Origin: Methanobrevibacter smithii ATCC 35061
GTDB lineage: Archaea; Methanobacteriota; Methanobacteria; Methanobacteriales; Methanobacteriaceae
Reading direction: 5' to 3'
Assembly (NCBI RefSeq): GCF_000016525.1
Contig: NC_009515.1
Location: forward strand, 956,501 to 1,020,500
Length of the DNA stretch: 64,000 nucleotides
In this document: piece by piece, positions 7,988 to 29,927 of the stretch
Layout of the letters: the number at the start of each line of letters is the position of its first letter
Position numbering within the stretch: the first letter of the stretch is position 1
Made by a program: the position numbers and the translations under genes
The notes under the pieces: model-generated
Databases searched by the model: none
Told to the model about the DNA's origin: nothing
The model's input: only the letters and a program-made list of their open reading frames with translations

Positions 7988-9412
7988 TTAGAATTTTTTA
8001 ATGATGTTTCCTTCACTGTCTACAATATCTACTTCAGCTAATCTCATTTGGCTATCCATAGTGTGAGTTGCACAGGATAAACATGGGTCATATGCTCTGA
8101 TAACCATTTCCATTAAGTTGAATATTTTATCGTCTACTTCTACACCAGGTTTGATGTAATCTTTAGCTACTTGTTGAATACCCATTTCCATAGCTGGGTT
8201 GTTTTGGATAGTAGCTACAACAATGTTAGCTTCAGTTACTAAACCATTGTCATCACATGCGTAGTTGTGTATTAAAGTACCACGAGCAGCTTCTACAATA
8301 CCTGCACCTTCACCAGCAGTTCTTTCTAATTCTTCTGGGAATTTTGGACCAGATAAATCTTGGTCTAATGCATCAGCAGCACATTCAGCAGATGCTAATA
8401 ATTCAATAAGTCTTGCCCAGTGGAATAATAATGGTGCTTGTGCATATCCAAATTTGTCATGGAATTCTTCAAATGCCGCTTGTGCAAGAGGTGCTGCATC
8501 TGGCATTTTATCAGCAACGTTAATCCTGGATAATGGTGCTACTCTGTAAATACCTTCTGGGTATCCTAATTCTTTAATGTAAGGGAATTTTAACCAAGAG
8601 TAAGGTTTTACATGTTCAGCAACAACATCTTTGTATTCTAAGTTTTTGTATTCAGTGTAGATACTACCATCAACATCTTTTATTCTTACGTCACCGTTGT
8701 AAACATCCCATACACCGTCATTTACAAGACCACAGTGTCTGGTGTCACCAAAGTAACCTAAAGAATTGACTAAGTCTATTTTTTCTTCGAAAATAGGTTT
8801 AGCTAAGTCGAGAGTAGCTTGTGCTAATTCTACGTTTCTTTGAGCTCTTTGTAATAAATCTTTTTGAGTTTCATCATCTAATTCAGTTGAAATACCTCCA
8901 GGAGTAGAGGAAATTGGGTGAATTGGACGACCACCGATTTTTCTTACAATTTCTAAACCATTTCTTCTGAGTTCAATTGCTTGAAGTGCAATTTCAGGTT
9001 GATCTTTAATAATTTGGAAAACATTTCTGGTTTTTCTGGTTCCGTCAGGGATGATTAAATCAGGAGCAGCTAAGAAGTAGAAATGAAGTGCGTGGGAGTG
9101 CATGAATGAACCCCAGTTCATAATTTCTCTCATTTTATATGCTGTTGGTAAGATTTTTTCATCTTCGAAACCGAAAATTTGGTCAACTGCTTTTGCAGCT
9201 GCTAAGTGGTGTTGAACATCACAAATACCACAAATTCTTGGTACAATCCTAGCTAATTCTTCAACTGGACGACCTTGTAAGAATTTTTCGAAACCTCTGA
9301 ATTCCATAACATGTAATCTTGTATCGACTACATTTCCATCATCATCGAGCTGTACAGTAATTTTAGCGTGACCTTCAATACGTGTTACAGGCTCCATAGT
9401 AAGTTTTACCAT
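7988..9412 (-). CDS. mvhA: F420-non-reducing [NiFe] hydrogenase large subunit
   Basis: The large subunit holds the Ni-Fe active site that splits H2 in the MvhADG-Hdr electron-bifurcating complex. The first cysteine pair is in RICGIC (C61, C64) and the second in DPCLSCATH (C444, C447) near the end. About 24 residues follow H450, which matches the C-terminal peptide removed by a maturation protease after nickel insertion. The N-terminal RIEGHAKI motif is typical. The length of 474 residues fits the family. AGGAGGAG stands before the ATG, and mvhG ends one base upstream. Confidence 0.97.
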
Positions 9413-26428: not shown

Positions 26429-27676
26429 ATGCAAGTTGTAGCAGATGTTGGAGGAATTCCTGGAAAAGATTGTAACGGTTTTTGTAAGTACTGTTACTTC
26501 AGAAAGGTAAAAGAAGTTAAAGCATTTGGCTGTGCTCACTGCTTACCTAATAAAATTGGCTGTGACAGATGTAGTAAGGGAATAACCGACTCACAAAGTG
26601 AATTTAGATCTCCATTTGAAGTAATTACTGAAGTTCAAAATGCTTTGATGATGCAACCTAATTTTAGAGAAAACGACATTAAAGTAAATATTAGCGGAGG
26701 AGGAGATGTTAGCTGCTATCCCTATCTTGAAAATTTAACAGCTAATTTAAATCAGTTTTCACTTAAATCCCATTTAGGTTATACCTGTGGAAAAGGCATT
26801 ACTGAAAGTGAAATAGCTTCCAGATTAATTAATAATGGTGTCGATGAAGTTACATTTACTGTTTTTTCAACAGACCCTAAACTTAGGAGAGAATGGGTAA
26901 AAGACAAAAAACCTGAAGAAGCTCTAAAAGCTTGTCAAATCTTTTGTGAAAATGCTGATTTAACAGGAGCAGGAGTAATAATTCCTGGAGTTAATGACGG
27001 TGATGTACTTAGACAAACCTGCAATACCTTGGAAGAATGGGGTGCTAAAGGATTTATCTTGATGAGATTTGCAAACACCTTCAATGAGGGATTAATTTTA
27101 GGAAATGAACCTATTCTTAAAGGAATTGAATCACAGCCTGTTGAAGAATTTGGTCAGTTAGTTGAAGAAATTAATAAAGAATATAATTTCAGAGTAACAG
27201 GCACTCCATTATGTGATCCTGAAACTGGCGGCCCATTTGCAATAGCTAAAGATGAAAATGAAATATTTTTACAATTTATTAAAAAAGTGACCGGAGAAGC
27301 TACCATAATTACATCTAAAATAGCTGCACCATTTATAAGTAAAATATTTGATAAAATAGATGCAGATAATGTAAATGTAATCGGAGTTCCAAAAGAAATA
27401 GCTTGTTTAATTACAAAAGAAGACCTGGAACAAATTGATTTAAGTGAAGTGAAACAGGCAGTTATTATTCCAGGACGTGCCTTTGTTCATCAATTAGATG
27501 CTGAGAGAATTCTAAGTGCTGACGGTGTAGAACGTATTGTTGGCCGCGGCCCGGATACTTTAACAATAGATGGTGAACTCAGCTTTGATAAAACAGACGA
27601 AAATGTTATTGAAGAAGAATTAACACAATTTAATGATTTGGTTGATGCCATTAACTTCTTTGGAATGAGAATATAA
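26429..27676 (+). CDS. mmp10: McrA arginine methyltransferase, radical SAM (marker 10)
   Basis: Methanogenesis marker 10 is the radical SAM, cobamide-dependent enzyme known to methylate an active-site arginine of McrA. The 415-residue protein has CX3CX2C at C15, C19 and C22 for the [4Fe-4S] cluster. Another four-cysteine group follows (C35, C38, C45, C48), probably for an additional metal site. VNISGGGDVSCYPYLE follows, typical of radical SAM. It faces away from the mcr operon across a 589-bp gap, a sensible place for an Mcr-modifying enzyme. Confidence 0.93.
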   Translation: MQVVADVGGIPGKDCNGFCKYCYFRKVKEVKAFGCAHCLPNKIGCDRCSKGITDSQSEFRSPFEVITEVQNALMMQPNFRENDIKVNISGGGDVSCYPYLENLTANLNQFSLKSHLGYTCGKGITESEIASRLINNGVDEVTFTVFSTDPKLRREWVKDKKPEEALKACQIFCENADLTGAGVIIPGVNDGDVLRQTCNTLEEWGAKGFILMRFANTFNEGLILGNEPILKGIESQPVEEFGQLVEEINKEYNFRVTGTPLCDPETGGPFAIAKDENEIFLQFIKKVTGEATIITSKIAAPFISKIFDKIDADNVNVIGVPKEIACLITKEDLEQIDLSEVKQAVIIPGRAFVHQLDAERILSADGVERIVGRGPDTLTIDGELSFDKTDENVIEEELTQFNDLVDAINFFGMRI

Positions 27677-27690
27677 AAAAAGTAGATGAT

Positions 27691-28611
27691 TTAAGAATCA
27701 TCAATAAGGGAACTTTCAGTGTGGATTTTTACTAAGATATAATCATACATGAAAGACTTTTTAATTTCAGCCAAGTCGGATAATTTTTTACCTTCTATAA
27801 CTACATTTTCAATTAGTTCATGATATTTATCATAATTTAATTTTACCCTGACTCCATCAAGCTGCACTGTAATAGGTGCTGGAGATATGATATCTTCAAT
27901 AGCTGGAACCTGATTTTCAATAGCATTTTTAACTACAATAGATGGTACAAGTGGCGGATCCAATGCCATTTCTCTTTTTTTATTATTTAAAATTGTTTCA
28001 ATTGTATCCACTAAATTATTAAGAGCTCTTATATCTGGACCTCTTTTAAGTCTTCTTGGAATCCTGCCAAGCCCACCAACATATGCATCAGCACCTGGAA
28101 GTTCTTCAATTGGAATTTCTGGAGCTCCAGTTACAATAACAGGAACATTAATGTCATCATATAAAAAGGATTTTTCTTGAATACAATTTTTAAAACTGCC
28201 TAATGCAAAAACAGCCACATCATGTTCTTCAATTAAGCTTTTTTCTTCTTCAGTGATTCCTGAAGTTCCTTTCCCATCTCCTCTGGCCAATCCAATCATA
28301 TTGTCTTTAGCACCAAATTCACGCAAATACTCAGAAATATCACATGCTGCATGAGGCAGGTGATGTCTTGCAAGTGTTGGAGATACAATAGCTATTTCAG
28401 AACCTGCCATTGGAGCTACTGTTACCTTAGCAAGCAATTCTTTAGCCTTATTTTTAATAACATCAACATCTTCTAAAGGAATAGGTAAATTTAAAACCAA
28501 TTCCATTTGTAAAATGTTTTCCTGAAGGATGAAACCTCCTAAATCTTCAATAAGTTCCTTGACTTCTTCACTTTTGTGAACTCCACCAGTATATGTTAAT
28601 GTTTCATACAT
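27691..28611 (-). CDS. methanogenesis marker protein 7
   Basis: A 306-residue protein of the methanogenesis marker 7 family ([30 protein letters not shown] is written here only in part as [18 protein letters not shown]). In other methanogens it is reported with Mcr activation proteins; its chemistry is unknown. Conserved stretches include [22 protein letters not shown]-like residues 90-112 and a glycine-rich [17 protein letters not shown]. No membrane helix is present. It ends 14 bases after mmp10 in convergent orientation. The following 171-residue gene lies upstream in the same orientation. Confidence 0.8.
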
Positions 28612-28659: not shown

Positions 28660-29175
28660 CTATATTAACTTTTCCAAAATTTCGTATCTTTTTTCAAGTC
28701 TTACAAATGGATTTTTAGATACAAAATTGTGTGACGAAATCTCAATTAATGTTTGTGTTTCATTTTGAACTTCATCAGCCAAATAATCCGGATATACTAC
28801 ATAATCATAGTTTTCATCATCAATAGTAAACCCCATACTTTCAGCAGTGTCTTTTAAAAAGTTAGAATAAACTTTAATGTGAATACTGTTTTTGACATTA
28901 TTATTAAGATATTTTTTAGCTAATGGATAATCATCAAAAAATGAAAGTATTTCTTCATCAGTTAAATTATTGTTAAAATCTATTTTTTTAATGCTTTCAA
29001 AAATCTGGACTGATGAATTAACTTTAAGTGGAATAGAGTCTATTTCAACCTTACTTTCAGATAATAAAATAGCCAAATCCCCATCATTCTTATTGGGGTG
29101 TTTATTAACCTTATAATTTTTTATTCCAACTAACTTTACAAGATCTTCACACATAGGTGTTGTGACAATTTTCAT
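28660..29175 (-). CDS. conserved methanogen protein of unknown function
   Basis: A 171-residue soluble protein that I do not recognise with certainty. It begins MKIVTTPMCEDLVKLVGIKN, has DGDLAILLSESKVEIDSIPLKV in the N-terminal half and DYVVYPDYLADEVQNETQTLIE near residue 125. There is no membrane helix, no signal peptide and only one cysteine (C9). It lies 48 bases upstream of mmp7 on the same strand and may be co-transcribed with it. It has no visible ribosome-binding site and shares a 59-bp divergent region with comB. The place suggests a link to Mcr or coenzyme M; this is inference. Confidence 0.75.
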   Translation of the reverse strand: MKIVTTPMCEDLVKLVGIKNYKVNKHPNKNDGDLAILLSESKVEIDSIPLKVNSSVQIFESIKKIDFNNNLTDEEILSFFDDYPLAKKYLNNNVKNSIHIKVYSNFLKDTAESMGFTIDDENYDYVVYPDYLADEVQNETQTLIEISSHNFVSKNPFVRLEKRYEILEKLI

Positions 29176-29234
29176 ACTAATAATTATTATAAAAAGTAAA
29201 ATTTAAAATTAATTAATTTTTATAAATATGAATC

Positions 29235-29927
29235 ATGAAAATTACATTAAGCTTTGAAAAAACACAAACCAAAGATACATCCATAATGGTCGATGCACTT
29301 AGGGCAAGTACCACAATTACACTTGCTTTGAATAATTTTAATGAAATCATCCCATGCTTTACACCAGAAGAAGCATTTGAGTTAAAAAAAGAAATCAATG
29401 GAATAATAGCCGGAGAAAGAAGCGGAAAACGTGTTGAAGGCTTTGATGTTGGAAACTCGCCAAAAGATGTTGAAAATTATGACACTGATATTGAAACACT
29501 TATACTGACCACAAGTAATGGAACAAGAATTCTTAAAGATATGGATTCAACTGTTCTTGTAGGATCCATGGTAAATGCAAAAGCAGTTGGGTATAAAAGT
29601 GTAGAGATAGCTGAAAATGAAATTGATGTTGTAATGGCAGGATACAAAGGAAATTTTGCCCTAGAAGATTTTTTGGCAGCCGGTGAAATTCTTTACTGGA
29701 TTTGCGACAGGTTAAATAATGAGTGCGAAATAAGCGATTATGCAAAAGCAGCCATCATGGCCAGCAGAGATTATGATGCTCTAAAAGAAGGATTTTATAA
29801 TTGCAACTCCGGAAGAAAACTGTCCCGACTTAAATCCAAAAAAGACATCGACTGTTGCGTGTTAAAAAATATAAGTGAAAATGTGGCTATCTATGAAAAT
29901 AATATATTGAAATTAATTAAAGATTAG
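29235..29927 (+). CDS. comB: 2-phosphosulfolactate phosphatase
   Basis: ComB removes phosphate from 2-phosphosulfolactate, the second step of coenzyme M synthesis from phosphoenolpyruvate. The 230-residue protein has the family motifs VDALRASTTITLAL, GERSGKRVEGFDVGNSP and LTTSNGTRIL. There is no clear ribosome-binding site; TTTTTATAAATA lies just upstream, so the mRNA may have a very short leader. ComC, the third enzyme of the route, lies at 45617. Confidence 0.93.
   Translation: MKITLSFEKTQTKDTSIMVDALRASTTITLALNNFNEIIPCFTPEEAFELKKEINGIIAGERSGKRVEGFDVGNSPKDVENYDTDIETLILTTSNGTRILKDMDSTVLVGSMVNAKAVGYKSVEIAENEIDVVMAGYKGNFALEDFLAAGEILYWICDRLNNECEISDYAKAAIMASRDYDALKEGFYNCNSGRKLSRLKSKKDIDCCVLKNISENVAIYENNILKLIKD

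Follow-up and report, generated by a model that had tools for sequence, protein, structure and literature searches.

One described setting for the gene analyzed here is the MCR activation complex, in which, according to the available sections of the report on it, nitrogenase-type clusters are held by Mmp7, one of them via C143 and H84, and NifB is the probable maker of the clusters (PMC12176620). The same sections count Mmp17 and DUF2098 among the accessory proteins of the complex, the latter being a small McrC-binding protein, and hold no description of the route by which clusters arrive at McrC and Mmp7 or of a protein that hands them over (PMC12176620). A second frame of reference is structural and consists of two groups of proteins: the class III binding proteins (TroA/BtuF/FpvC-type), which have a two-lobed fold, and the nitrogenase family (NifD, NifEN and methylthio-alkane reductase), for which binding of [8Fe-9S-C] via Cys and His is characteristic.

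The window, that is, the whole stretch of DNA that was analyzed (64,000 nucleotides of Methanobrevibacter smithii ATCC 35061), contains beside mmp7 an open reading frame, here called X, which the initial annotation had described as a protein of 171 residues. The frame is exactly as claimed in position, strand and length, and its surroundings are as follows.

26429..27676, plus strand: mmp10, MCR arginine methyltransferase (TIGR03278), near X
27691..28611, minus strand: mmp7, methanogenesis marker 7 (TIGR03274), same strand as X and 48 bp downstream of it
28660..29175, minus strand: X, 171 aa with an ATG start, undescribed family, predicted two-lobed metal-receptor-like fold
29176..29234: intergenic region between X and comB, 59 bp between divergent genes, presumed divergent promoter
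29235..29927, plus strand: comB, 2-phosphosulfolactate phosphatase (TIGR00298) of coenzyme M biosynthesis, divergent from X

X is a genuine gene. The longest open frame at its position spans 180 codons, compared with a maximum of 137 and a median of 57 when the surrounding 800 bp were shuffled 1000 times, and a spurious ORF is rejected because none of these shuffles reached the observed length. The start residue is backed by orthologues that align from it (N-terminus MKIVTTPMCE), and a dN/dS of ~0.2-0.33 against four orthologues (NG86) points to purifying selection. Orthologues were recovered from 46 of 61 relatives with a single-sequence query and, by profile search, from 139 of the 151 genomes of the phylum, including 89 of the 91 with at least 90% completeness and at most 5% contamination. 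In the two good genomes without X (G002 and G064), no full mmp7 match is present either, so that their assemblies may simply not contain the region; G064, which belongs to the family of the window organism, is 95% complete in 490 contigs and could reflect either loss or an assembly gap. A scan of named genomes with two short peptide patterns gave 73 X loci, nearly all of them in genomes titled as Methanobacteriaceae genera, but such a scan misses divergent members, and the absence of X is therefore judged from whole-genome profile searches. One X locus (L084) lies on a contig whose title names a Clostridia MAG, where the protein is 54% identical to that of the window; the contig is probably mis-binned Methanobrevibacter. 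In another (L169 of G140, ~9190-9310), the gene is split between two frames in what looks like an assembly error, and a pseudogene is rejected here, since the break falls at an ambiguous assembly base and the remainder continues in another frame.

The designation of X as a member of an unknown family also holds. The window protein matched 0 Pfam families, and its matches in NCBIfam are sub-threshold only (the best scores 16.2 bits where the cut-off is 494). Searches of Pfam and NCBIfam with all 22 aligned orthologues, plus relatives, yielded matches to the X domain that were inconsistent and all below threshold, and PDB sequence-profile searches returned nothing credible. We take MTH1181, MTBMA_c15580 and MJ0786 to be probable family members, in part from their neighbors; a search of the open-licence literature for these tags gave a single paper, on DNA periodicity. 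Methanogen signature-protein papers were not found in that literature, and the portions of it that were available contain no description of X, including PMC12176620 (which in these portions does not name X for the M. maripaludis activation complex), PMC10100467 and PMC3087415. As far as the open-licence literature goes, X is undescribed.

With respect to the surroundings of X, a family scan confirmed mmp10, mmp7 and comB as neighbors and also recognized a TraB-family gene, and the mcr genes were recognized by reading. X and mmp7 are probably co-transcribed, as spacing, strand and conservation suggest an operon. For neighbor counts, 142 X-carrying loci were reduced to 108 distinct sequences. 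In 92 of these, mmp7 lies within the compared stretch, always on the same strand with X upstream (92/92): at less than 300 bp downstream in 82 loci, at 319-1495 bp downstream in 6, and abutting or overlapping X in 4 (L032, L035, L099 and L113). The other 16 loci are without mmp7 in the compared stretch, some of them because the stretch cuts off there. Likewise, comB is found within the compared stretch in 95 distinct loci, divergent from X in every case and at less than 400 bp in 92; in L171 and L176, mmp7 has moved away and comB stays with X. A Methanothermus-like locus (L031) keeps X, mmp7 and comB together, and mmp10 and mcr are not in its 18-kb stretch. However, in many X loci the synteny of traB, ncs6, degT and trm1 equals that of comB, and the argument from neighbors to the function of X is weakened because the whole block, unrelated genes included, is syntenic.

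More distant homologues were found with a profile of 22 aligned X orthologues (A1), which was run against 36 genomes, 34 of them mmp7-bearing genomes outside Methanobacteria (best E 3e-14). These fall into two groups, X' and X'', which together with X make up a second alignment (A2). X', from Methanococci-like genomes, is a stand-alone gene flanked by hcgA and hcgG, which belong to the [Fe]-hydrogenase cofactor genes, and is presumably MJ0786, judging from gene order. One or both of hcgA and hcgG adjoin it in all eight loci compared (L141-L148); in L141, its flanks are HmdB/HcgA (TIGR03957) and HmdC/HcgG (TIGR03958). It does not figure among the hcgA-G genes named in those sections of the literature that were covered. 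Small membrane-protein-like ORFs lie near X' in L143, L144 and L147. X'', from Methanosarcinales-like genomes, makes up the C-terminal end of ScpB (PF04079) and is encoded behind scpA; all 44 matches in the Halobacteriota-like sample are in frames of 357-414 aa, and the order ScpA-ScpB is found in all 18 loci compared, some of which are repeats of one place. The ScpB proteins of L149-L154 and L180-L191, encoded in the order scpA-scpB, carry an extra C-terminal metal-receptor-like domain without a Pfam model, and a TBP gene lies beyond scpB in several Methanosarcinales-like loci. A tree of 21 sequences separates X from X' plus X'' by a fully supported branch. The residues T6, M8, P129, D130, Y131, H149, R159 and Y164 do not vary in any of the three, whereas at position 9 the Cys of X contrasts with a Tyr in X' and X'', so that the putative site is not the same throughout the superfamily. 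X' shares homology and predicted fold with X, and differs from it further by SKGY in place of SE(S/T), a long linker helix and another neighborhood; X'' has the invariant T, M, PDY, H, R and Y in common with X, and differs by the fusion to ScpB and by adjoining scpA and the TBP gene. Neither was seen beside mmp7 or comB. The conserved neighbors to which the initial annotation looked for support are real for X itself, in its fixed relation to mmp7 and comB, but they do not extend to its distant relatives, nor, in many loci, do they set these two genes apart from the rest of the block.

The distribution of the superfamily was followed with mmp7 as a proxy for mcr. In 395 genomes, the A2 profile matched 162, namely 139 Methanobacteria and 23 others, and 22 of these 23 have an mmp7 match. 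The exception, G357, is the sole match among 210 genomes lacking mmp7 outside Methanobacteria and is weak (E 0.0058); the match in G220 is also weak (7e-4). A profile search of a Halobacteriota-like sample of 246 genomes gave the superfamily in 0 of 94 genomes without mmp7. By this proxy, the superfamily is absent from non-methanogens, and X itself is limited to Methanobacteria, with X' or X'' found elsewhere; judged from these matches, the distant relatives occur only among some other methanogens. The superfamily is not, however, present wherever mcr or mmp7 is: it was matched in 22 of 34 mmp7-bearing genomes outside Methanobacteria, leaving 12 without a match, and in the Halobacteriota-like sample in 44 of 152 mmp7-bearing genomes, with no family member in 108. 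X is not a core MCR factor, because most other mmp7-bearing lineages are without it. The proposal in the initial annotation that X is a methanogenesis-linked protein is partly supported: the confinement to mmp7-bearing lineages agrees with it, whereas the many mmp7-bearing genomes without a family member speak against a general role in methanogenesis. Within Methanobacteria, G080, G081, G091 and G094 have X and no mmp7 match, and three incomplete genomes (G033, G095 and G155) have mmp7 with X not matched. Among mmp7-bearing genomes more generally, G146 (a single contig, 99% complete) gave no match to Mmp17 (TIGR03291), and G163 and G191 gave none to DUF2098.

AlphaFold models of X (pLDDT 92.1, pTM 0.87) and X' (pLDDT 95.4) predict the two-lobed fold of the TroA/BtuF/FpvC receptors and of nitrogenase NifD/NifEN, with the lobes of X predicted at about residues 1-65 and 97-171. 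The top Foldseek matches of the X model are YfeA, BtuF, MntC and nitrogenase MoFe (E 2e-5 to 2e-4), and VIA-align 2 places it closest to FpvC (Z 10.7, rmsd 3.4 Å, 164 aligned), the haem binder 3md9 (Z 10.5) and BtuF (Z 9.5), so that metal, haem and B12 binders are near-tied in Z as fold neighbors. The X' model aligns with AztC over 178 of 179 residues (Z 13.0, rmsd 3.3 Å), and its Foldseek matches also include apo-NifEN, nitrogenase and a nitrogenase-like reductase. Among the 22 aligned X sequences, T5, T6, P7, M8, C9, E40, N53, S104, P129, D130, Y131, H149, R163 and Y164 are invariant, together with others. Of the 27 invariant A1 residues, 17 fall in five-residue windows at strand C-ends, which cover 35 of the 171 positions (p ~1e-7, for a class picked after the pattern was seen). 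In the model, the invariant residues clustered at strand ends, Cys9, Asp130 and His149 among them, should line the cleft between the lobes. Binding proteins of the class III type place their ligand contacts at strand C-ends.

Although the predicted models of X and X' share the two-lobed fold of class III proteins over their whole length, X is smaller (171 versus ~260 residues), only 6-16% identical and has a short or broken linker helix. No export signal or lipobox was seen in X by eye, and no gene for a partner ABC transporter is among the neighbors read, those of X being mmp7 and comB. Furthermore, relatives of X are fused to the cytosolic ScpB, unlike class III binding proteins. To members of the nitrogenase family the likeness is one of fold (Foldseek TMq ~0.56-0.64, E ~1e-4 to 1e-3), and the pairing of Cys with His as cluster ligands could have a counterpart in the invariant Cys9 and H149 of X. 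On the other hand, X is one small polypeptide compared with a three-domain nitrogenase subunit, X' and X'' are without the Cys, and Pfam, NCBIfam and PDB profile searches gave no sequence homology to NifDKEN or CfbD. The shared fold alone does not show the function of X.

The explanation that we tentatively favor, as a possibility short of a probability, is that X works in the cytosol as a carrier or assembly protein that binds a metal or metallocofactor, its client in Methanobacteria likely being the mmp7 system. We infer that X binds a ligand, as well as the chemical class of this ligand, the part of X as a carrier or in assembly, and its client. X would be a soluble, cytosolic mini-version of the class III or NifD/NifEN two-lobed fold, which would hold its ligand, a metal ion or metallocofactor, in the inter-lobe cleft with Cys9, Asp130 and His149 as likely contacts, and would hand the ligand over, or aid its insertion, into a methanogenic enzyme system; in Methanobacteria, this would likely be the mmp7-linked machinery of MCR activation or assembly. 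In support are the two confident models, the clustering of invariant residues at strand ends, the co-direction of X with mmp7, the nitrogenase-type clusters of Mmp7, and the constant position of X' next to hcgA and/or hcgG, genes making an iron cofactor. Against it stand the absence of X from many mmp7-bearing lineages and the distance of ~10-19 kb between X and mmp7 in some genomes (G062, G077 and G079). In addition, metal delivery does not account for the ScpB fusion of the Methanosarcinales-like group, and together with the Cys-to-Tyr difference in X' and X'' this fusion speaks against one fixed function.

The predicted fold would serve as well if X took part in general iron, nickel or Fe-S homeostasis without a special tie to MCR, its position by mmp7 being old synteny. 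The synteny of the whole comB-traB-ncs6-degT-trm1 block and the involvement of Fe cofactors in two of the three contexts agree with such a role, which nevertheless appears somewhat unlikely in light of the restriction of the superfamily to mmp7-bearing lineages and the strict co-direction with mmp7.

It is improbable that X instead acts in coenzyme M or general carbon metabolism with a tie to comB, be it as an enzyme or as a ligand sensor, whose cleft would bind a small anionic metabolite and whose Asp130 and His149 would serve in catalysis or binding. The constancy of the divergent comB, also where mmp7 has moved, and the retention of the Asp-His pair across the superfamily would fit, and in the part of a 2011 review that was available the last CoM step, ComF, is listed as unidentified (PMC3087415). 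However, X and comB are not on one transcript because the genes diverge, the fold neighbors are metal, haem and B12 receptors, and relatives of X occur in the Methanosarcinales-like group, whereas Methanosarcina spp. are without comABC according to the same part of the review (PMC3087415).

Small, too, is the chance that the superfamily serves in chromosome maintenance, as the C-terminal domain of ScpB that has survived on its own in class I methanogens, with X having kept a DNA/SMC role. The consistent fusion to ScpB behind scpA suggests this, as do the absence of ScpB from all 14 Methanobacteria, Methanococci-like and Methanopyrus-like genomes tested and the retention of ScpA in 5 of 5 Methanococci-like genomes. 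Yet ScpA and ScpB are both absent from the 6 Methanobacteria tested, a class that keeps X; X' adjoins hcg genes and not scpA; and the predicted fold is not a winged helix, its top matches not being DNA-binding families. The ScpB winged-helix domain (PF04079) gave no match in X, nor in genome G000.

X as a replacement of Mmp17 or DUF2098 in Methanobacteria is rejected, because these small Mmp7-system proteins have genes of their own and in general occur alongside X (of the 7 Methanobacteria tested, all have DUF2098 and 6 have Mmp17). A general FeGP-cofactor role of the superfamily is likewise rejected, as it is not present wherever hmd/hcg occurs. In profile searches, G180, which we take to be Methanopyrus kandleri, gave no A1 match and was not among the A2 matches. 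For Methanopyrus kandleri, hmd/hcg are reported in the accessible part of the review (PMC3087415).

Returning to the metal or metallocofactor carrier, its most specific form would make X the protein that hands over the cofactor when MCR is activated in Methanobacteria. As a minimal carrier of nitrogenase-like kind and a NifEN analogue for methanogenesis, X would receive a NifB-made [8Fe-9S-C] cluster (or F430) in its cleft, with Cys9 and His149 as ligands, and insert it into Mmp7/McrC. This we regard as quite improbable: X would fit the gap in cluster hand-over in Methanobacteria, yet lineages without X would need the same step. For this gap, X is nevertheless a direct candidate: it is near-universal in Methanobacteria, runs in the direction of mmp7, has an invariant Cys and His, and is predicted to fold like a metal receptor or nitrogenase. 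For annotators, a superfamily that occurs in three contexts (mmp7, the hcg cluster and the ScpB fusion) and is without a family model constitutes a definable target.
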